From the NCBI RefSeq assembly GCF_009831625.1, contig NZ_WUUS01000013.1:1-64000 (forward strand): DNA of 64,000 nucleotides, written 5' to 3'. Position 1 is the first letter of the stretch; every line of letters begins with the position of its first letter. The position numbers and the translations under genes are program-made. Positions 3,100-54,464 of this stretch are shown here, one piece after another. The notes beneath the pieces were generated by a model, which searched no databases, was not told the origin of the DNA, and worked only from the letters and a program-made list of their open reading frames with translations. The stretch is from Halobaculum saliterrae. Its GTDB lineage: Archaea > Halobacteriota > Halobacteria > Halobacteriales > Haloferacaceae.

Positions 3100-3138
3100 C
3101 TGTGAGGGTTCTGAGTAGAGCAATGGAACGACTGGGGA

Positions 3139-3213
3139 TACTCCGTCGAGGATTTGAACCTCGGTCCGCGACGTGAGATGCCGAGATGATTGTCCGAGCT
3201 ACACTAACGGAGC
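3139..3213 (-). tRNA. tRNA-Glu (anticodon CTC), divergent copy
   Basis: Read on the minus strand, 75 nt fold as a tRNA. The acceptor stem GCTCCGT/ACGGAGT has a terminal G-T pair and discriminator A. D-loop GG and the A14 position are kept. The anticodon loop is ATCTCAC (CTC, Glu), and the T-arm CGAGG-TTCAAAT-CCTCG is perfect. Length and layout match haloarchaeal tRNA-Glu. Departures from the norm are a T27-C43 mismatch, a G30-T40 wobble, A instead of a pyrimidine at position 32, and the G1-T72 pair. It may be a functional accessory tRNA or a decaying copy. Confidence 0.7.
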
Positions 3214-3311
3214 ATCTCGAACTTGTGGCCCCAGTACTTCAAATTCAGGCGGTGTCCTGTTCACTGGGAATCCGCCGTTTCCGCTTATCCTGAGGGCTTT
3301 GATATCCCGGT

Positions 3312-39520: not shown

Positions 39521-40636
39521 ATGGTTGATCTCATTGACGTCGTCCTTGAGGGTATCAAAGGTGTCGTTGATTGGTTCATCGGGTTGTTCATGGACGGTCT
39601 CAGGTCGGGGTATGAGACTCTGACTGAGGGAATGTTCGGAACCCCGACCCCAGAGACGAACGGAGCATTTGTCTTCGGTGAGCCGACCAATGCACCCTGG
39701 CCAGCGATCCACGATGCCCTCATCGGCGGCGAAATCATGCTGGTCGCCCTTTTGCTTCTCGTGATGAGCGTCCAGGGGCGTCACACGGTTCGGATCTTCA
39801 ATATTGGAAGTACCTACGAAGCCCGAAAAACGAAGAAGACGGCCTGGGTTGGAGCCTTTCTGATTATCACATGGTACTGGGTTGGGACTCTCGCGCTCTA
39901 CCTCGTCGACGGATTCACCATTGCACTGATGCCGGAGCTTTCCTCCGTAGCCTCGGCAATGCTTCAATTCTTGGGTGCAGCCATCACAAACCCAGGGCTG
40001 GGACTATTGTTCGCCGTGATTGGTGGGTTCTCGATGTGGGCGCTGGAGGCGCTGTTCTACATCCGGATGATTCTGCTCTATGTCTACCTGTACGGAATGC
40101 CGATTGCATTTGCACTGGCCTACGGAAATATTCCGGTCGTATCCGATATCGCGATGGGATTTTGCAAACGGTTTGTCCCGTTGGCTGTCCTCCCGCTCCC
40201 CGCAGCGATGGTTCTCAAGGGCTATGATCTAATCTACAGCGGTAGGACACTGACGCCAGGAACTGCGTTCCTCAAGTACCTCGTGGCTGCGTCGCTCCCA
40301 CTGGTCGCCCTCTATATCACGTGGAAGACGTTCAAATACGCGACGCCGTTGACGGCCAAAGTCGTCGGTGGTGCGACGAAAGGCGCAGCACTCGTTGGCG
40401 GTGTCGCCGCTGGAGCCTACGTCGGTGGCGCCGGCGTCGCGACGACCGCCGCTCGGTGGGGGCCGAAAGCCGCCGCTGGCCACGCCGTCGCGCAAAAAGC
40501 AGCTGCTCGCGGTGGGCATGGAGGAAACGATGGCGGAACGCCGTCGTACCGTCGAACAGAGAATGACCCTGGTGGAGCGACAGCGGAATCGGCGAGTGAC
40601 GACCGTGGGATGGAGTTTGATCGAGGAATCCACTAA
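39521..40636 (+). CDS. VirB6/TrbL-like polytopic membrane protein
   Basis: 371 residues with six to seven TM helices. It begins with an amphipathic stretch, IDVVLEGIKGVVDWFIGLF, followed by helices around 60-80, 105-130, 145-190, 200-215 and 250-270, and a Gly/Ala-rich then charged cytoplasmic tail. This arrangement is the typical VirB6/TrbL type: an inner-membrane channel core beside VirB4. Sequence similarity is not obvious, so the assignment rests on topology and gene order. Confidence 0.72.
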   Translation: MVDLIDVVLEGIKGVVDWFIGLFMDGLRSGYETLTEGMFGTPTPETNGAFVFGEPTNAPWPAIHDALIGGEIMLVALLLLVMSVQGRHTVRIFNIGSTYEARKTKKTAWVGAFLIITWYWVGTLALYLVDGFTIALMPELSSVASAMLQFLGAAITNPGLGLLFAVIGGFSMWALEALFYIRMILLYVYLYGMPIAFALAYGNIPVVSDIAMGFCKRFVPLAVLPLPAAMVLKGYDLIYSGRTLTPGTAFLKYLVAASLPLVALYITWKTFKYATPLTAKVVGGATKGAALVGGVAAGAYVGGAGVATTAARWGPKAAAGHAVAQKAAARGGHGGNDGGTPSYRRTENDPGGATAESASDDRGMEFDRGIH

Positions 40637-40638
40637 CA

Positions 40639-41760
40639 ATGTCAGCAGATCAAGACGCGGCCGCACGGCGCATCATGGATCAGTTCGGCGAGGAGAGTCG
40701 CATCCCATATCTCAATATCGAGGAAGGAGACGTCGGCATGCTCATCGCCTTCCCCATTATTGGGCTGTTTATCGCGGGCCTCACCGGGATTGAGTCGCTT
40801 GCCCTCCCGTTCGTCGCTGGCGGGCTTGGCTTTGGCGTCGCCGTCATCTACGTCTCACCAACCCACCTGAACGCCTGGACGTGGACCAAAGACGTCTATC
40901 GGTACCTCAAACGGCCGCAGGTCACGTTCAGTGCGCCCGCCGACGCCGACACGAGTACCAACGAATCAGAGCGCAACGAGGGCGGACTCGCGAACTACAC
41001 GCCGTTCAAGCCGGACGAGCGAACGCAGGATCTCACCAACATCAAGCGGGCGTGGCCGGGCGCTGGTGCCATCCAGCGTGAAGACGGCGCGATGGAGGCG
41101 TTCATCGAGATCGATCCGGCCAACATGGACTTCGCGATGTCCGACGACTGGGCGCAGCTCCAGGACGCTGGCGAAGAGTTCGCCAACAAAGAGCTGGACT
41201 CGAAGCTCAAACTCCACGCCACAACCCGTTCCTTCCCCGTCGAGCAGATCACCGAGACCATCGAAGATCGACTCACTAACGAAGACGTCACAGAGAACCC
41301 GATCTTCCGGGAACTCCTCGAAGAATATCGGGAAGCACGGCCGAAGGAGATGCGTGACCGGGGTATTCAGCAGGTCCGGTACTACATCGGCGTTGAAGTC
41401 AGTCCGATAGAGGTCTACGACCGCTTCCGCGACGAGGGCACCCCCGCAGAGAAGCTGACGCAGTTCCCCGTCATCGGGTTCCTGTTCAACCCGTTCGTGA
41501 CCCGCCGCGAGGACCTCACCGACGTCGAGCGCCGTGCCCAGATGTTCGAGAAACTCGACAGTCGCGTCAACGACGTTCGCTCCGAGTTCATCCAGCAGGC
41601 GTCGGGGTGGTCCGCACGCCGGCTCAGCACGGTCGAGCTGTTCGTTCTGAATATGGACTTCTGGAACGGCCGCGAACATGACTACGACGAGGCGGAACGT
41701 GTCGTTCGCGACCAATCGATCATCGGCCACTCGCGCCGGGAGGACCCACACGATGCGTAA
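40639..41760 (+). CDS. VirB3/PrgI-like protein with VirB4 N-terminal-like domain
   Basis: 373 residues. Two close TM helices (about 35-72, GMLIAFPIIGLFIAGL and LPFVAGGLGFGVAVIYV) follow a short soluble start. A long soluble domain follows with IKRAWPGAGAIQREDGAMEAFIEI, the sort of opening seen in the N-terminal part of VirB4/CagE proteins. It overlaps the VirB4 gene by 8 bases. A VirB3-type membrane anchor joined to a VirB4 N-terminal domain, upstream of the ATPase, is a known variation. Confidence 0.72.
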   Translation: MSADQDAAARRIMDQFGEESRIPYLNIEEGDVGMLIAFPIIGLFIAGLTGIESLALPFVAGGLGFGVAVIYVSPTHLNAWTWTKDVYRYLKRPQVTFSAPADADTSTNESERNEGGLANYTPFKPDERTQDLTNIKRAWPGAGAIQREDGAMEAFIEIDPANMDFAMSDDWAQLQDAGEEFANKELDSKLKLHATTRSFPVEQITETIEDRLTNEDVTENPIFRELLEEYREARPKEMRDRGIQQVRYYIGVEVSPIEVYDRFRDEGTPAEKLTQFPVIGFLFNPFVTRREDLTDVERRAQMFEKLDSRVNDVRSEFIQQASGWSARRLSTVELFVLNMDFWNGREHDYDEAERVVRDQSIIGHSRREDPHDA

Positions 41761-43960
41761 TGTTATTCTCCAGACCGGTGGTGGTGCGCTTGGCTCCGTC
41801 GCCGGGTGGCTCCAGAATCTGACGCCAGCAGAGAGTGCAGTACTTGCCCTTGCAGTGGGTCTCGGCCTTGGCGTCGGTAGCAAGCACCTCTGGGACTGCT
41901 TCACTGCGGACGATGAACCAGACGTGGACTTCACCGATGTCCTCGACGAGGAGACACTCAAAGAAGGCGAGGCCGAACGCAAGCTCCTCGACGACATCTC
42001 CGAGTCGCACAAGACCGTCACCGCGCCCGGAGCTGTCGAGTGGGAAACGCGAGCCGCACGGGTCGGCGAGCAGTGGACAACGACACTGTACATCGCTAAC
42101 TATGCCGACTATCCCAACGACGGATATCTGAGCGACCTCTTCGAGATGACCGACGTCCAGTTCGATCTGACGGCCCACATCACGCCGAAAAATCAAGAGC
42201 GGGCCCGGAACGAACTGCAAGACATCGCGGACGACCTCCAGGTCGATGCTGACCTCGAACAGAGTATCCGGAGCGCGTATCTCCAAGAGCGCGCCAACGA
42301 GGCCGCAGCGACGTACAAGGCCGTCGAGAACGGTGCGAACGTCTTCGACCAGGGGATGTTCATCACGGTCCGGGCCGACGAGAAGGACGAGCTCAGAGAC
42401 GCCGTCCAGACCGTCAAGAGTGCGCTCCGCGACGACCCGGCGAACCTCACGCCGAAGACCGCAATTTGTCGGCAGGACCTCGCCCTCCAGTCCGCCGCGC
42501 CCATCGGCGACAACGAATTCGGGCGGACATCAATCGCACTCGGCGGGGCCGTCGGCGCACTGCTGTCCTCGCCGCACAACGCGACGATCCTCGAGGAGGG
42601 CGGAGTGGAGTTCGGGATTCACAAGGACAACCAGAGCCCCGTGGTCATCGACCCGTTCGCCCGGGACAACGGGTACGCGATGTTCACCGTGGGCGACACC
42701 GGCTCGGGGAAATCGTTCAGTTCAAAACAGAACTTCATCCGCTCCATCGAGCAGAGCAAGGACCGTATCGGCATCATCCTCGAGCCGTTGAACAACTGGG
42801 CGGGGGTCTCAGAGGCGCTCGACGCCAAGCGAATCACCGTCGGCGGGACGCTCGGGCTGAACCCCTTGGAGATCCGCGAGACGCCCGAACACGTCCAGCG
42901 GGCGATGGGCGAGGACGCAAGCCCATTCAACGAGAAGCTCGACGACGCCATGAGCTTCCTCACGAACTTCTTCGCGCTCCGCGGCATCTCGTTGGGCGAC
43001 CGCCGGACGACGCTCGAACTCGGGCTCAAGCGGGCCTACAAGCGTCAGGGCATCACCGACGACATCTCGACGCACGACAATCCGAGTCCGACCATCCGCG
43101 AGATGATGGACGTCTTCGAGGACATGGTTGACGACCCTGAGGAGTTCGTCGTTCGATCCGACGAAGAGGCAGGGAAGATCAAAGAGGACGCGACGTGGCT
43201 GCTCGATCAGCTCCGCCCCTTCGAGGACGACGGTCGCCACGCCAACCTCGGCCAGGAGTCCGACTTCGACATTCGGGACGAGAAGGTCATCTACCTCGAC
43301 CTCGCCCAGCAGGAGGGGAGCGTCGACAGCAGTACGGCGCTGACCATGCAACTGCTCATCTCGCTGGTGTACGAGCGCGCGAAAGTCTCGGAGAAGGAGG
43401 TCGTGTTCTACATCGACGAGGCGCGCTACATCATGCAGGACGCCGCGAGTCTGGCGTTCCTCGAAACAGTGTTCCGGCACCACCGCCACCACGACCTCTC
43501 GATCCGGCTGGTCACCCAGACCGTCGACGAGTTCTTCGAGCACGCCGAGAGTGAGGCCATTCTCGACCAGTGTGCGGTCAAGCAGTTCCACCGCCTCGAC
43601 GGGATGGATGATGAGTGGGCCGACGAGTTCGGGCTGAACTACGCGCAGATGCGGTTCGTCCAGGACGCCGTGCCCGGCAACGAGGACGCCGGCTTCTCCG
43701 AGGCCCTCGTGGGCGTCGACGGCGAGTGGCGCGGCATCCAGGTCAAAGCGATGCCCAAAGAGAAGCAAGTCATCGACTTCGAGCCAACCGAGCAACGGCG
43801 ATCCTCGCTCCCTGGTACTGGCGAGGATGCTGTAGACGCGGACGTGCAGGCGTTCCAAGACGATATTGAAAGCCGAGCGACCGACAACGGACAACGCCCA
43901 CCAGAGCAGACGCCAGCAGAGACTGATGGTGGCGCAGCGGGAGGTGACGAGGATGCGTGA
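41753..43960 (+). CDS. VirB4-type secretion ATPase
   Basis: 735 residues from MRNVILQTGGGALGS; the overlap with the preceding stop supports this start over 41678. One N-terminal helix, a middle domain, then Walker A GDTGSGKSFS (about 314-322), Walker B VVFYIDEARYIM (about 549-560), and a sensor-type LVTQTVDEFF. The hexameric ATPase powers the type IV secretion channel. A Glu/Asp-rich tail follows. Overlaps the next gene by 8 bases. Confidence 0.9.
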   Translation: MRNVILQTGGGALGSVAGWLQNLTPAESAVLALAVGLGLGVGSKHLWDCFTADDEPDVDFTDVLDEETLKEGEAERKLLDDISESHKTVTAPGAVEWETRAARVGEQWTTTLYIANYADYPNDGYLSDLFEMTDVQFDLTAHITPKNQERARNELQDIADDLQVDADLEQSIRSAYLQERANEAAATYKAVENGANVFDQGMFITVRADEKDELRDAVQTVKSALRDDPANLTPKTAICRQDLALQSAAPIGDNEFGRTSIALGGAVGALLSSPHNATILEEGGVEFGIHKDNQSPVVIDPFARDNGYAMFTVGDTGSGKSFSSKQNFIRSIEQSKDRIGIILEPLNNWAGVSEALDAKRITVGGTLGLNPLEIRETPEHVQRAMGEDASPFNEKLDDAMSFLTNFFALRGISLGDRRTTLELGLKRAYKRQGITDDISTHDNPSPTIREMMDVFEDMVDDPEEFVVRSDEEAGKIKEDATWLLDQLRPFEDDGRHANLGQESDFDIRDEKVIYLDLAQQEGSVDSSTALTMQLLISLVYERAKVSEKEVVFYIDEARYIMQDAASLAFLETVFRHHRHHDLSIRLVTQTVDEFFEHAESEAILDQCAVKQFHRLDGMDDEWADEFGLNYAQMRFVQDAVPGNEDAGFSEALVGVDGEWRGIQVKAMPKEKQVIDFEPTEQRRSSLPGTGEDAVDADVQAFQDDIESRATDNGQRPPEQTPAETDGGAAGGDEDA

Positions 43961-46900
43961 GTACCTTCGCGTGACGCCAACCTCCGAACGGCTCACTCCG
44001 GAGCGTCTGCCGCAGGCACTGGAGAGCCTCCACAAACTGACCTCAACGGACTCGGCAGGGCTAGCTGACAAACTCAACCCGCTACATAGCGACACACCGC
44101 TACGCTTCGAATTCCTCGCGCTCAGTGAGGGGAAAGATGACCCCGTCGAATTCTACTACGGTGCAGACGACCACTTGGATACCCTTGAGAAACGGCTCCG
44201 GTCGATCTATCCCGAGACATTCGATATCGAGCGCACCGAGGTCGACATCGCATCCCGACTCGTACAGCCTGTCGAATTCGACCGCGAGACATTCGTTGAG
44301 CACTATGAGTCAGGCGAGCTCACGTACGAATTCGGCCCTGACGAGCAATACGAGAGTGGCACTGACGACAACAATCAAGCGGGGCCAGGGGATGCCGAAT
44401 CAGTCGCGGATGGAGGAACGGTCGGCGACCAGTTTCCCGACCACTTCATTGAGATTGGCGATACTGCCCTCGAACTCGCCCCACCAGATGCGATTCCCGA
44501 GGATGAGCCACTCACGACGCTTGCCAAACCAACGGTAACATCGGAGGGGAGGATACTCGCCCGGCCAGCGACCGAATCTGTCTCCCCACTCGGCGTGCGG
44601 TGGCAGGGGTCGGCGACTCGGAAGCAGGACTGGATGACCTCACTCTCGCCATTTACTGCCGACGACGAAGCAGAACTCCCCGCGGTCGATCAGCCAGGGG
44701 GTGCGCTCGCGTCGCTCGTCGACCACCTGATGGAGGCGACAGCACCAGTAGCGTTCCAAGTCGTCTTCCAACGACGCGAGAGCTGGCAGTCCGATGCCGA
44801 CCTTCGCAAAGAAGATGTCATCGACGGACGGGACACACTCGCCCAGGAGATTATTGGCTCCCTTTTCGAACTCGACGATCGGTCGGAGAGTCGGGATAGA
44901 AACCAGCTGAGCGACGCGGTTGCAAAACGTGTCGCAGCAATCGAGGCGAAAAATCCGAAGCGCTCGTTCACCGCGAACATCCGAGCAATCGGGATTCCAT
45001 CTGATAGTGACGGTCGCGATGATCTCGGTGAGCGAATGCAATCACTGGTCCCGGTATTCGACCCGCTTGACGGGCCGTACTACCAGGTTGCAGCCGAACG
45101 AATACGTGACAGCGGCTTGCGGGCAGCCACAAAAGAACGGAACGCACGAGCGGCGCTGCAGCGGCTCTTGGATCGTGAGATCACGACCGGTCGTGGGACG
45201 ACCCGACCGGAGTTCGTCCTGAGTGGTCGAGAACTCGCGCACTTCGTACTCGTCCCCTCCTCGGAGCAGCTTACTGTCGAGGGGGCACGTGGGACGCGTG
45301 CGGAACAGCAGAGTCGGAATCCGTTGCCCCGTCCGCACCAGGACCTTATGGGTGAGTTCCGAGACGGGATGGCAATCGGGTATGCCCTCGACGACACCGG
45401 CGAGGCCGAAGACGTGCCGACACACATTCCACCCGGACTGTTGCCCACTCATTACGGCCGGTTCGGAACAACCGGCTCTGGGAAATCGAAAGCCCTCATC
45501 AACGATATGCTGTCGCTGTACGACAACACCGAGGGTCCGACGATCCTCATCATCCCGAAGAACGACGATATGGCCCAGAATTATATGCGGGCTCACGCGC
45601 GTCAGTTCGGAATGACCGACCTCGAAGAGAACGTCGTCCACTTCACAATCCCGGACGTGCTCCCCGGGTTCTCGTTTTTCGATCTCGAACCGTCGATGGA
45701 GAGCGGACGGCGCCGCGAAGACGCCGTCCAACGGAAGGCCGACCACTACGAAGAGATTTTGAAGCTCGTGATGGGAACCGACCGCTACGAGCGGGCGACT
45801 GTGGCCCCGACTCTCATCAAGACGCTCATCAAGGCACTATTCGACGAGGAATACGGGCGTGAAAACGGGCTGTACCGAGCGTCGACGGACTACTTCGCCC
45901 ACCGACAGCTCGAACACGTCGTCGACCAGCTCTGGGAGGCCGGGCCACCGAACGAGAACATCGGCGACGCCCCACGGTCGAGCGACGAGGAAGTCACGCG
46001 GACGATTCGACGGCAGCTCCAGTTAGATCCAAACACCTTCGCGAACGTGATGGGTGGTGTCGGAAACCGCCTTGCGTACATTTCACAGGATACGCACCTG
46101 CGGCAGATCTTCAACAATACCGAGAACCAGTTCGACTTTCGGGATGTCCTCGACGAGGATACGGTCATCCTCTTCGACCTCGGCGACCTCCGCGACGACG
46201 CCGCCCGGATCATGACCGGTGTGATCCTGACCAATCTCGATGCAGCTCTCAAGGACCGCAAACAGGCCCTCTCCCAGCGCTCGGACGACTACGTCGTGAA
46301 CTTGCTCGTCGACGAGGCAGCGTCGGTCGTGGTCTCCGACATCATGAATGATCTCCTCGAGAAAGGCCGGGGATTCCGGCTCTCTGTTGGCCTGTCGATG
46401 CAGTTCCCCGAACAGATGGAGGCTGAAGGTGGGCGGAAGATCTACCTGAATGCTCTGAACAACATCGGCAGTTCACTCATCGGGAAAATCAACGTCGACC
46501 GGGAACTGGCGCGAGCGATGGCCCACGAAGAGATGGACCCCGCAGATTTCGCCAATCGGATCCGTTCGTTGCCGCGCGGAGAGTGGATCGCCAGCTTACC
46601 AAGCCCGACGTTCGGTGAAACGGGGCCGTATCCGTTCAGTCTCGAACCACTCCCGATTCCACCGGGCCACCCCGAGAGCGAATCCCCGCTCACTGAGCGT
46701 GAAGAGGCGCAGTTCACTGAGACCCTCTCCTCGATGCACGAGCACATCAGTGACGAACACGGCGTGCCGGCCGCAACAGACGCCTCAACAACGAGAACAC
46801 CGACCGACGGACACGAGGTGCTCGATATCGGGAGCGACGACCTGGACGTTGCGATTGCGAAGGTGGTTCGGAGTCTTCAGCTCCAAGAGGGGTGCCGCGA

Positions 46901-48263
46901 GGAGAACGGCTGGGTGGCCGTTGAAGCAGTTGACGACGAACTCAGACGGCACTTCGACGACGTCGACGCCGAGCCGCCGTCGTATGATGCACTCGCGGAC
47001 ATCCGAGAACGATCACGATACCTCGATACGACCGTCGATGTCGACGCCGACGAGCTCCGCATCCGGCTCACTGACGCCGGAGAAGAGGTCGCGACACCCG
47101 ATACTGGTAGCGTGCAGGCCGCTGGTGGGAGTGTCCACGACGCAGCACTCCTCCAGATCGAAGAAGAACTCACTGCACTCGGTTTCACCGTCTCGATCCT
47201 CGCACAGGATGGCAGCGAGAAACCTGACGCGAAGGCGAGCCACCCCGACGTTGCCGACCGATTCGCCATCGAAGTCGAAACGACGACACCTGAGAATCCC
47301 GCAAAGGTGCTCACGAACCTCCGGAAAGCCCAAGAGGCAGGGGATATCCCGCTGTTTGTCGTTCGACCAGGAAACGACGGAACTGAGTGGGCCAAGCGTG
47401 TCGACGGTATTCTCACACCACCCGTCCGTACCCTCCAGAATGGTGAGACGCGGTTCTACACCACTGACTCGAATCTCACGTTCAACGGCGGGGCAACCGA
47501 AGAAGGTGGAGTGACGGCCGTCCGCCCGGCGACCGACGACGAGAACGGGGCCCAGAACATCTGGCAGCGTGATGGCGACGAAATCGTCCTTTGTGATGCC
47601 AACGAGACGGAACATATCCGCCTCCCGTCGCTTGGAAAACTCTCGAAAGATCGTGTTCCAGCCATCTACAGCTACGACCACGCTGCCGACGAGTACGTCG
47701 TATACGAGCACGGTGAGCAACACATCTACGAGACGAAATCGACGTTCGAGGACGACTGGGTGCGTGTCAAGAAGCCATTCGTCCCCGAAGCCGAACTCCC
47801 CGTACCAGACTACACACGTTCGACGTACGGCATCGTGATCCTCCACGATGAGGCGGAATTGGTCGTGTATGAAGACGGTGAGAAGCGGCCACTCTCGACA
47901 ATCACTAACGGAACACTCCGTCCCGCATCGCCCGAATCAGCGGCCGCTGACGAGCCACTTAGTCAGACAGACCAGGCAGATGAGACAGTCGAGGAAGACC
48001 AATCGCCACCGTCGTTCGAATCGTTCGTCGACGAATATCTTGTCGAAGATGCGGATGAAGCCGTGCCGAAAGATGACGTATTCGGCCTCTACAACGACTG
48101 GGCAGAGGCACACGGCATCGACGATCCGCTGAATAAGAGCTGGTTCACACGGAAGCTCAACACCCATATCGAGGTAGACTCCACGAAGAAGCGAATCGAC
48201 GAGGAACCCGTCCCGCATTACACTGGTGTCCGCATCCGGTCTGAAGAGGACTTTCAGCCATGA
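43953..48263 (+). CDS. Giant VirD4/TraG-like coupling ATPase with C-terminal nuclease-like and wHTH domains
   Basis: 1436 residues from MREYLRVTPTSERL. An N-terminal domain of about 480 residues resembles VirB4/HerA N-termini (LRSIYPETFDIERTEVD). The ATPase core has Walker A GTTGSGKSKAL (about 505-515) and Walker B NLLVDEAAS (about 783-791). Residues about 1060-1140 contain DRFAIEVETTTPENPAKVLTNLRKA in part, like a PD-(D/E)xK fold. The last 80 residues (FVDEYLVEDADEAVPKDDVF, then YNDWAEAHGI and HYTGVRI) match the winged helix of P4-type primases. Likely brings DNA to the channel. Confidence 0.85.
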   Translation: MREYLRVTPTSERLTPERLPQALESLHKLTSTDSAGLADKLNPLHSDTPLRFEFLALSEGKDDPVEFYYGADDHLDTLEKRLRSIYPETFDIERTEVDIASRLVQPVEFDRETFVEHYESGELTYEFGPDEQYESGTDDNNQAGPGDAESVADGGTVGDQFPDHFIEIGDTALELAPPDAIPEDEPLTTLAKPTVTSEGRILARPATESVSPLGVRWQGSATRKQDWMTSLSPFTADDEAELPAVDQPGGALASLVDHLMEATAPVAFQVVFQRRESWQSDADLRKEDVIDGRDTLAQEIIGSLFELDDRSESRDRNQLSDAVAKRVAAIEAKNPKRSFTANIRAIGIPSDSDGRDDLGERMQSLVPVFDPLDGPYYQVAAERIRDSGLRAATKERNARAALQRLLDREITTGRGTTRPEFVLSGRELAHFVLVPSSEQLTVEGARGTRAEQQSRNPLPRPHQDLMGEFRDGMAIGYALDDTGEAEDVPTHIPPGLLPTHYGRFGTTGSGKSKALINDMLSLYDNTEGPTILIIPKNDDMAQNYMRAHARQFGMTDLEENVVHFTIPDVLPGFSFFDLEPSMESGRRREDAVQRKADHYEEILKLVMGTDRYERATVAPTLIKTLIKALFDEEYGRENGLYRASTDYFAHRQLEHVVDQLWEAGPPNENIGDAPRSSDEEVTRTIRRQLQLDPNTFANVMGGVGNRLAYISQDTHLRQIFNNTENQFDFRDVLDEDTVILFDLGDLRDDAARIMTGVILTNLDAALKDRKQALSQRSDDYVVNLLVDEAASVVVSDIMNDLLEKGRGFRLSVGLSMQFPEQMEAEGGRKIYLNALNNIGSSLIGKINVDRELARAMAHEEMDPADFANRIRSLPRGEWIASLPSPTFGETGPYPFSLEPLPIPPGHPESESPLTEREEAQFTETLSSMHEHISDEHGVPAATDASTTRTPTDGHEVLDIGSDDLDVAIAKVVRSLQLQEGCREENGWVAVEAVDDELRRHFDDVDAEPPSYDALADIRERSRYLDTTVDVDADELRIRLTDAGEEVATPDTGSVQAAGGSVHDAALLQIEEELTALGFTVSILAQDGSEKPDAKASHPDVADRFAIEVETTTPENPAKVLTNLRKAQEAGDIPLFVVRPGNDGTEWAKRVDGILTPPVRTLQNGETRFYTTDSNLTFNGGATEEGGVTAVRPATDDENGAQNIWQRDGDEIVLCDANETEHIRLPSLGKLSKDRVPAIYSYDHAADEYVVYEHGEQHIYETKSTFEDDWVRVKKPFVPEAELPVPDYTRSTYGIVILHDEAELVVYEDGEKRPLSTITNGTLRPASPESAAADEPLSQTDQADETVEEDQSPPSFESFVDEYLVEDADEAVPKDDVFGLYNDWAEAHGIDDPLNKSWFTRKLNTHIEVDSTKKRIDEEPVPHYTGVRIRSEEDFQP

Positions 48264-48313
48264 AATGGACGTACACGGTCCAATTCCCGATATCATCGGG
48301 ACTTCTTGAGACC

Positions 48314-48491
48314 TGTTCCACCCAAGCTGAATCATGACCTCATCCAATCAAACTCGAAGGTCGGAAATCACCCGATGGCGGCATGTTCCACCCAAATCCT
48401 CAATGGGTGGAACACTAACGAGCTTGGCGGAATGGGTGGAACACGCTCACGTCCAGCGGTTTGCAACCAGCCATAGTGAGTGTTCCACCCA
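48314..48491. repeat. Five copies of TGTTCCACCCA in a 345-bp noncoding region
   Basis: Perfect 11-bp copies at 48314-48324, 48384-48394 and 48481-48491 (forward) and 48404-48414 and 48433-48443 (reverse). Copies 2 and 3 form a palindrome with a 9-base spacer. Start-to-start distances are 70, 20, 29 and 48. The segment (48264-48608) has no convincing gene and sits between the coupling ATPase and the PrimPol gene. Clustered inverted motifs suggest a binding region for a plasmid initiator, an oriT protein or a repressor. Confidence 0.85.
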
Positions 48492-48614
48492 ACAACCAAC
48501 TAGGATAGAACGGGGGGTCCCCGTTGGGACCAAGGGATTGGATCGCGACCAACAGCAGCGTGAGTTCTGTGCTGGCTCAGAGCCAGTGAGAGCCATACGA
48601 GGTGCTACGTGAGG

Positions 48615-49877
48615 ATGAGTGAGCCTATGATCGGCGAGCCGGAGGCGATTCCGGAGACGTTACGCGAACGCGACCAGTGGGTGTGCTGGCGAGAAGAGGA
48701 GCGAGACGGCAAACCGACAAAGATTCCGGTGACGCCAGGGGCTGGGGGGTTCGCATCAGCAACCGAGTCAGAGACCTGGGCGAGTTTCGGGGCGGCACTC
48801 GACTACACCGAGACGGAGTATGCCGACGGCGTCGGGTTCGTGTTTACTGACGACGATCCCATCGTCGGCGTCGATCTAGACGACTGCCGCGATCCCGAGA
48901 CAGACGATGTCGACGACGCGGCGTTGGACATCATCAGGCGACTCGACTCCTATACGGAGGTGTCACCGTCCGGTACTGGCTATCATGTCCTGATCACCGG
49001 CGAACTCCCCGACGGGCGGAACCGTCGCGGGAGCGTCGAACTGTACGACACGGCACGCTTTTTTACCGTCACTGGCGATCACGTCGAGCGGACACCCACT
49101 CGCGTTGCACGCCGACAGGACGCGGTCACAGCGATTCACCGCGAATACGTCCAGGACACCGAGCGTGACACAGCATCCGAGTCCGAACAGCGTGGTGGCG
49201 CTGACCCCCGGTCACCGACGACCGATGCAGCTGACGTTGACGTCGACCTCGAAGACGAGGACCTCCTCGAGAAAGCGCGAAACGCATCCAACAGCGAGAA
49301 GTTCGAGCGGCTCTGGAACGGGAATACGGTCGGCTACGACAGTCAGTCCGAGGCCGACATGGCGCTGTGCTGTTTGCTGGCGTTCTGGACCGGTGGCGAC
49401 CAGACGCAGATGGAGCAGCTGTTCCGCCAGTCGGGATTGATACGAGAGAAGTGGGACGAGGTTCACTACGCTGACGGGTCGACGTACGGCGAGAAGACCA
49501 TCGAGCGAGCGATTGCGACCACGTCGGAATTCTACGACCCGGACGCCGGCGACGATACCGCAGATCCTCACGGCCCACCTGACAGGGTCACTGCTGGTAG
49601 TACGCCTGACGAGGCAGACAGGAGTCGTACGTACCTGGCGGAGAAAAACCGCTTGTTGAGCGAGCGCGTCGACGAACTCGAGGCAACACTCGAACAGAAG
49701 ACTGAGCGGATCGAGACCCTCGAAGCAGAGATCGAACGCCTCACCGACGAACTCGCAGCCCGTGACGGGGAAACTGAGCAGTCCCAAGAGGAAGACTCCG
49801 GTACTGCGAGCGAGACCGGTGATGACCCAGAGCCAGCCTCTATGTTGCGTCGATTCTTCGGTGGTCGGTCTGAGTAG
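48615..49877 (+). CDS. PrimPol (AEP-like) replication protein, NrS-1 polymerase-like
   Basis: 420 residues from MSEPMIGEPEAIPE (MRMS at 48609 also possible). N-terminal AEP motifs appear in order: I IVGVDLDDC (about 83-91), II SGTGYHV (about 118-124), III ELYDTARFFTVTG (about 138-150). A helical bundle follows with FERLWNGNTVGYDSQSEADMALCCLL in part and YGEKTIERAI, as in NrS-1-type primase-polymerases. A coiled-coil of about 60 residues (ELEATLEQKTERIETLEAEI in part) and a short tail ending RRFFGGRSE close it. Probably primes or replicates plasmid DNA. No helicase domain. Confidence 0.85.
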   Translation: MSEPMIGEPEAIPETLRERDQWVCWREEERDGKPTKIPVTPGAGGFASATESETWASFGAALDYTETEYADGVGFVFTDDDPIVGVDLDDCRDPETDDVDDAALDIIRRLDSYTEVSPSGTGYHVLITGELPDGRNRRGSVELYDTARFFTVTGDHVERTPTRVARRQDAVTAIHREYVQDTERDTASESEQRGGADPRSPTTDAADVDVDLEDEDLLEKARNASNSEKFERLWNGNTVGYDSQSEADMALCCLLAFWTGGDQTQMEQLFRQSGLIREKWDEVHYADGSTYGEKTIERAIATTSEFYDPDAGDDTADPHGPPDRVTAGSTPDEADRSRTYLAEKNRLLSERVDELEATLEQKTERIETLEAEIERLTDELAARDGETEQSQEEDSGTASETGDDPEPASMLRRFFGGRSE

Positions 49878-53600: not shown

Positions 53601-54464
53601 ATGTCAAGTAAGAACGTCTCCAGTGAAGTAGTTTCGGTCGATGAACAGGCTTTCGAGAAACACGATGACGTCGAGGTCGACGAGGACGGATTCGAGGTCG
53701 TCGACGAGACCCCGGAGTTCCGGGCGACGGTCGACATGGAAGTGCAGGCGAAAGTCGATTCCAACCATCCAGACGCGCGGGTCGAGGAAGGCCCGGATCA
53801 TCTGTTCGGGAAGACCCTCGAACAGGAAGAGCGCATCGAGGCCCGGGAAGCCGAGCTGGAGCACATCAGTGCCCAGGCGGAACTCAGTCAGCAGGAGGGA
53901 CGCGCGAAGCGGACGCGAGAGGTCGTCGTCGAGCAGTGTGGCCGAGACGAGCCCGAACCGGTGGAGCGCACGGATCCCCGAGAGAAGCTGACGCAGGAAG
54001 AACTCGCGGCGGTGAACAAGCAGGCGATGCGGATCAGCGACGAGGTTCAGGGCGGCTGGTCGAGAGCGGTCGTCGCGAAGCAGTTGGCCGAGAAGGTGCA
54101 GCGCGGAGAGGACGTGACCAAGGCGGTGCTGGAGACGTTGGAGGAACTGAAGGCGGTGCCAGGTGCAATCGTGCCCATCGCGGATGTGCCGGACGTGCCC
54201 GTCGGGGAAGTGACGGTCCAGGGTGAAATTACCGAACTCTGGACTCCAAGTGACAACTCGATTCAACAAGTCGGGCTCATCGAAGACGAGAGCGGGCGAA
54301 CGAAATTCACGGTTTGGGAGAAGAGCGGGAAAACGGTGGTTCGAGAGGGGCAGACGGTCAGATTCAGAGCGGTCAAGAAGAACTGGTACCAGGGCCGGTG
54401 CAGTCTCGCGATCACGGGCTGGTCGAGGATCGAATTCCCAGATCGCGGCCGCTGGTGGGAATAG
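53601..54464 (+). CDS. RPA-like single-stranded-DNA-binding protein (OB fold)
   Basis: 287 residues. The acidic, Gln/Glu-rich N-terminal 150 residues look helical. The C-terminal OB fold starts near residue 200 with VTVQGEITELWTPSDNSIQQVGLIEDESGRTKFTVWE in parts, then GQTVRFRAVKKNWYQGRCSLAI. This matches haloarchaeal RPA-type single-OB proteins on plasmids. It should bind single-stranded DNA during replication or transfer. A GC-rich structured region precedes it. Confidence 0.82.
   Translation: MSSKNVSSEVVSVDEQAFEKHDDVEVDEDGFEVVDETPEFRATVDMEVQAKVDSNHPDARVEEGPDHLFGKTLEQEERIEAREAELEHISAQAELSQQEGRAKRTREVVVEQCGRDEPEPVERTDPREKLTQEELAAVNKQAMRISDEVQGGWSRAVVAKQLAEKVQRGEDVTKAVLETLEELKAVPGAIVPIADVPDVPVGEVTVQGEITELWTPSDNSIQQVGLIEDESGRTKFTVWEKSGKTVVREGQTVRFRAVKKNWYQGRCSLAITGWSRIEFPDRGRWWE

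Follow-up and report, generated by a model that had tools for sequence, protein, structure and literature searches.

The closest described counterpart of the locus reported here is the Streptomyces plasmid transfer system, in which the DNA-pumping ATPase TraB reads the clt repeats (8-bp TRS) of its plasmid by a C-terminal helix-turn-helix and operates without a relaxase (PMC4170104, PMC5365140, PMC12857230). In bacterial conjugative plasmids, a leading region with priming and single-strand-binding-like genes is located beside oriT (PMC11541004). For archaeal conjugative elements, the literature examined names neither a relaxase nor a transfer site, and the DNA transferred may be single- or double-stranded (PMC12857230, PMC9905601, PMC6563490). 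Among them, plasmids of the pNOB8 type and Thermococcus pT33-3 encode VirB4- and VirD4-like motors and have no recognised relaxase (PMC12857230, PMC9905601).

The haloarchaeal locus shares with TraB/clt a cluster of short repeats on the motor gene's own plasmid; its motor ends in a winged helix that co-varies with the sites and probably reads them. Unlike in TraB, this winged helix is of the Pox_D5 type, and the ATPase has no FtsK match in Pfam or NCBIfam; its best matches, SXT_TraD (E 3e-6) and CedB (E 4e-4), are significant, weak and below the curated cut-offs. The sites differ from TRS repeats in their length of ∼10 bp, their fixed geometry and the presence of class-independent boxes. Furthermore, no type IV secretion system takes part in the action of TraB, a homologue of FtsK, whereas the ATPase described here sits with VirB4 and VirB6 genes, which argue against a TraB-like one-protein transfer of double-stranded DNA. 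Since the ATPase lacks the FtsK-family feature and is accompanied by the genes of a VirB4/VirB6 channel, we have not filed the locus as a member of the TraB/clt type. The non-coding site between a transfer operon and leading-region-like genes is reminiscent of relaxase-dependent oriTs, with Box I and Box II (Table 1) as candidate nic sites; in contrast to these oriTs, the site class follows the coupling ATPase and no relaxase has been typed on the relatives, as all 33 of 33 close relative plasmids are called non-mobilizable by the MOB-suite typing in PLSDB, which refers to recognised families. The pNOB8-type plasmids and pT33-3 likewise combine VirB4- and VirD4-like motors with the lack of a recognised relaxase; the literature examined describes neither a transfer site nor its reader for them, and we present haloarchaeal candidates for both. 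Literature searches, largely without subscription papers, have returned no description of the locus.

The Site Array and Its Neighbours

The window, i.e., the whole stretch of DNA analysed, comprises the first 64 kb of a 101.8-kb contig. Between the stop of the ATPase gene at 48263 and the PrimPol start at 48609, a gap of 345 bp harbours five exact copies of TGTTCCACCCA in both orientations, which together span 178 bp (48314-48491), with ∼0.0001 copies expected by chance in 345 bp based on the window dinucleotides. The preliminary description had reported these five perfect 11-bp copies, a palindrome with a 9-base spacer and a 345-bp gap without a gene; positions and gap size have been confirmed, the palindrome corresponds to one inverted pair (S2/S3), and a 92-aa ORF that overlaps the gap is without Pfam match. 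A motif common elsewhere in the genome would have spoken against the original proposal, and only two further copies of TGTTCCACCCA have been found outside the array in the whole 3.78-Mb assembly, close to the ∼1.3 expected by chance. The full feature is wider than first noted and additionally includes the upstream C-terminal winged helix and the two class-independent boxes.

TABLE 1 Features at and around the site array (window positions).
Feature	Position	Strand	Remarks
VirB6/TrbL-like gene	39521-40636		upstream of array; PF19590, E 6e-135
VirB4-like gene	41678-43960		upstream of array
Coupling-type ATPase gene (VirD4/TraD/HerA-like)	43866..48263	+	1465 aa from first TTG
PD...ExE...K segment of ATPase	47133..47390	+	aa ∼1090-1175
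Swap cassette (winged helix and site array)	47800..48500	+	identity drop against near-identical plasmids of another class
C-terminal Pox_D5-type winged helix of ATPase	47997..48236	+	aa ∼1378-1457
Site S1, TGTTCCACCCA	48314-48324	+	exact copy
Box I, AATCACCCGATGGCG	48366-48380	+	general form AATCGCnnGACnGCG
Site S2	48384-48394	+	exact copy; first arm of inverted pair
Site S3	48404-48414	-	exact copy; second arm of inverted pair, 9-bp spacer
Site S4	48433-48443	-	exact copy
Site S5	48481-48491	+	exact copy; abuts Box II
Box II, CCAACTAGGATAGAACGGGGGGTCCCCGTTGG	48496-48527	+	class-independent; arms CCAAC/GTTGG co-vary
PrimPol-like gene with NrS-1 HBD domain	48609..49877	+	PF22763, E 1e-31; adjoins array
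OB-fold protein gene	53601-54464		downstream of array; weak match

The ATPase gene closes a transfer operon that also encodes VirB4 and VirB6, and a TFIIB-like factor gene is found downstream of the array besides those of PrimPol and the OB-fold protein. The array forms the border of the transfer operon and the PrimPol/OB-fold region, an arrangement that resembles, by analogy, the border between transfer and leading region in bacteria. Close relatives occur on plasmids of Halorarius, Haloprofundus, Halobacterium, Halorubrum, Halobaculum, Halorussus and others, where the ATPase is annotated as a conjugal transfer or a primase-like DNA-binding domain-containing protein with a start ∼20 codons later than the first TTG in the window. 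The C-terminal half of the ATPase is widespread in Halobacteriales, with only traces in the remaining phylum sample, and no relative of the ATPase was found to be encoded in the phage records searched.

Within this half, the winged helix is matched by PF03288 above the cut-off (aa 1387-1447), with which the predicted model agrees only in the order helix-helix-helix-strand-strand. The preceding PD...ExE...K segment, in which all 119 sequences compared share D1121, E1136 and E1138 and 97% have K1147, is possibly a PD-(D/E)XK-like nuclease domain, as judged from this residue pattern; profile searches of Pfam and PDB with the segment gave nothing usable. ATPase relatives without the winged helix have a GEAE/GEVE...DYDK stretch, which may be the same domain. 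Structure prediction for the two ATPase halves, based on 26-28 relatives, reached a mean pLDDT of 39, which is too poor for comparing motor folds.

Site Classes, Layouts and Boxes

In the comparison set of >100 haloarchaeal loci, the gap between ATPase and PrimPol measures ∼270-440 bp and typically holds ∼10-bp sites, whose spacing from a conserved box, CCAACTAGTATAG, is fixed and whose spelling varies between plasmids, at least ten classes having been distinguished. The sites of the window class start at -183, -113, -92, -63 and -16 relative to CCAACTAGTATAG (plus, plus, minus, minus, plus), and a similar layout is found on other plasmids with GTTACGGCAA or different spellings. In a second layout, direct repeats are located near -100, -58 and -26 (CCGGTCAGGGG, TGTTCAGGG, TGTCCACGCA, TGTCCAGGGT and others). 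The inverted pair of the window class occurs in 17 of 392 genomes, once per genome and always 124-140 bp behind an ATPase match, and no orphan copy has been detected in the 392 genomes and the viral contigs searched. No convincing repeats have been seen behind the ATPase in its more distant branches (L080-L089, L097, L110, L114), and L064 has a window-like winged helix, yet no clear array.

The 15-bp element of the form AATCGCnnGACnGCG lies just 5' of S2 in most classes and precedes several of the repeats in the direct layout. The arms of Box II, which flank the conserved TAGTATAG, are jointly altered to CCGAC/GTCGG or ACGAC/GTCGT in several lineages. Box II may act as a priming site, a single-strand promoter or a nic hairpin; its arms co-vary, but folding is not exceptional in most relatives folded and the right arm is lost in about ten loci. 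The GTTACGGCA pattern was sought in viral contigs and not found there.

Co-Variation of the Sites With the Winged Helix

Site class and winged-helix class have been found to change together: NKSWFTRKLNTH is paired with TGTTCCACCC, the spelling of the plasmid analysed here, SKPWFGRRLGNY with GTTACGGCAA, SKRWFTRRLRQH with GTTACGACAG, SKAWFSRSLGEF with CCGGTCAGGGG, and NASWFGRKLANV with TGTTCAGGG. For 39 dereplicated loci, the distance between motifs correlates with that of the winged helix with a Mantel r of 0.66, compared to 0.20 for the ATPase core and 0.14 for PrimPol. Conditioned on the other regions, the winged helix retains a partial r of 0.65 in this discovery set (2000 permutations), for which the P of 0.0005 is indicative, as Mantel permutations ignore shared ancestry; conversely, given the winged helix, the partial r drops to -0.13 for the core, -0.20 for the middle region and -0.22 for PrimPol. 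The sequence of the sites tracks the winged helix and not the rest of the ATPase or PrimPol.

Before hold-out loci of other families were read, the rule had been fixed that the motif of a locus is that of the nearest winged helix. It held wherever the winged helix reached 80% identity, in 33 of 33 loci, 29 of which contain at least three copies; this is weak evidence, as many of these loci are close relatives. Where winged helix and middle region are in conflict, the winged helix was right in four informative loci (L187, L197, L199, L211), with three copies of the motif that it predicts versus 0-1. In L190, neither the motif of the winged helix nor that of the middle region is present, and the prediction is broken. 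Below ∼62% identity of the winged helix, new motifs usually appear. With motifs derived de novo from 49 hold-out loci, the partial r amounts to 0.47 for the winged helix (P 0.00025) and -0.24 for the middle region.

Near-identical plasmids of different class (core 97-98%) share 35-61% DNA identity across 47800-48500 and about 85-97% on either side. Winged helix and array adjoin each other and are exchanged as one block of ∼700 bp, and part of their correlation is linkage, i.e., neighbours moving together. One may therefore suppose that both travel together by linkage alone, and that the sites are read by another protein or by none. We regard this as very improbable, as PrimPol and the ATPase middle region are almost as near to the array and yet fail to predict the class, and as the sites are kept while their spacers drift: where backbones of one class have diverged, identity is 85-94% for the sites, whose spacing is unchanged, and 39-49% for the spacers. 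Moreover, L074 and L077, the cores of which are 95% identical, show the same two-base difference at most of their sites, a concerted change that speaks against linkage alone.

Transfer Locus, Operator, Partition Site or Origin

The co-evolution of the sites with the winged helix of the coupling ATPase, together with the position of the array at the border of the transfer operon, has led us to favour a function in transfer. The segment is probably, though by no means certainly, a cis-acting transfer locus (oriT/clt-like) of haloarchaeal conjugative plasmids that is read by this winged helix. Direct binding of the sites by the winged helix appears very likely; the role in transfer and its direction are inferred more weakly, and cutting by the PD...ExE...K segment is speculative. 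The winged helices of several ATPase subunits would bind the five sites and, once bound, would load the motor where the transfer operon ends; the motor would then feed the plasmid into the VirB4/VirB6 channel, probably with the PrimPol/OB-fold side entering first. The class-independent boxes may mark the place of DNA opening, cutting or priming. As a tentative and rather doubtful extension, the ATPase might serve as a one-protein substitute for the relaxosome, which finds its plasmid via a winged helix that can be swapped and uses the PD-(D/E)XK-like segment to prepare the DNA, so that the cassette would represent an interchangeable protein-to-DNA code.

DNA-binding transfer proteins of bacteria commonly regulate their own expression, which favours reading the array as an operator without a direct role in transfer, by which the winged helix regulates the transcription of PrimPol and the genes behind it, TAGTATAG of Box II being the core promoter. 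Indeed, the TAGTATAG box upstream of PrimPol directly follows the last site, at a distance that is constant. However, the array is intact where PrimPol is split (L056, L058, L061) and where ∼1.5 kb of inserted DNA parts it from PrimPol (L045, L053), an operator would need fewer than five sites spread in two orientations across 178 bp, and the continual change of specificity would remain unexplained. A purely regulatory function is therefore considered unlikely, and a regulatory role of the same sites in addition to that in transfer is quite possible. The end of the DNA inserted between array and PrimPol in L045 and L053 reads like an IS200/605-type transposase gene.

FtsK reads short DNA sites by a C-terminal winged helix. 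By this likeness, the array could serve partition or dimer resolution, and the ATPase would act in segregation as FtsK does at KOPS, an explanation to which we give very little weight: the ATPase gene comes last in an operon of transfer genes that include VirB4 and VirB6, pCBA1232-02 of Halorubrum trapanicum, a plasmid of the CCGGTCAGGGG class, carries a separate ParA gene, and the sites form one cluster instead of being dispersed over the replicon.

With haloarchaeal Orc1/Cdc6 origins, the array has in common that short repeats in both orientations occupy a gene-free stretch, and direct repeats, a primase-like neighbour and a class-independent hairpin-like box likewise recall replication origins. 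The array might thus be a second origin, at which the ATPase or a replication protein binds the sites and PrimPol primes. The replicon's ORB-like set, however, is located elsewhere (71.5-72.4 kb) beside orc1/cdc6 and has a different sequence: orc1/cdc6 and these repeats occupy 70.0-72.4 kb of the same contig, 22 kb from the array, and on the complete plasmid pCBA1232-02 the orc1/cdc6 genes are 36 kb away. The reader that co-varies with the sites is, in addition, the transfer motor and not PrimPol. Finally, arrays of the same class, some of which may share one replicon or be inactive, are found together in G039 (L056, L105) and in G211 (L168, L173), which iteron incompatibility would disfavour. 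A second origin is accordingly rated as improbable. The GC skew of both replicons gave no usable origin signal. As to the repeats beside orc1/cdc6 (∼70 kb), four copies of the form CACCCCTCGTCCAGAGTGAAA have been noted in both orientations (L121:7480-8430; contig C13 ∼71480-72430); they look like ORB elements and would hence mark the true replication origin of the replicon.

The preliminary description had proposed an origin of transfer, an origin of replication or a control node, of which transfer is now favoured, replication is disfavoured and a control role is possible. Its term "iteron" is probably the wrong word in the replication sense, given the location of orc1/cdc6 and the ORB-like repeats elsewhere on the replicon and the coexistence of same-class arrays in one genome. 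A strict exclusion of equal classes between coexisting plasmids was also considered and rejected: many of these plasmids differ in class, but several genomes hold two of the same.

Implications and Further Observations

A transfer locus read by the coupling ATPase would suggest how archaeal plasmids are labelled for transfer although they lack the usual DNA-nicking enzyme. It offers a concrete cis site together with its probable reader, on plasmids across many genera of Halobacteriales, many of them cultured, and the natural swaps of specificity provide ready-made controls. If this assignment is true, substrate choice in archaeal conjugation becomes directly testable, the array may flag plasmids classed as non-mobilizable by typing tools, and a recognition code could be derived from the natural winged-helix specificities, of which there are at least ten.

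Two minor features of the gene content have been noted. Genes annotated as subunits of exodeoxyribonuclease VII (xseA, xseB) head the transfer operon in two related plasmids (L118:47693-48930 and L163:5930-7167), and a tRNA-Glu gene (anticodon ctc; window 3136-3214, minus strand) shares the contig with the plasmid-type genes.
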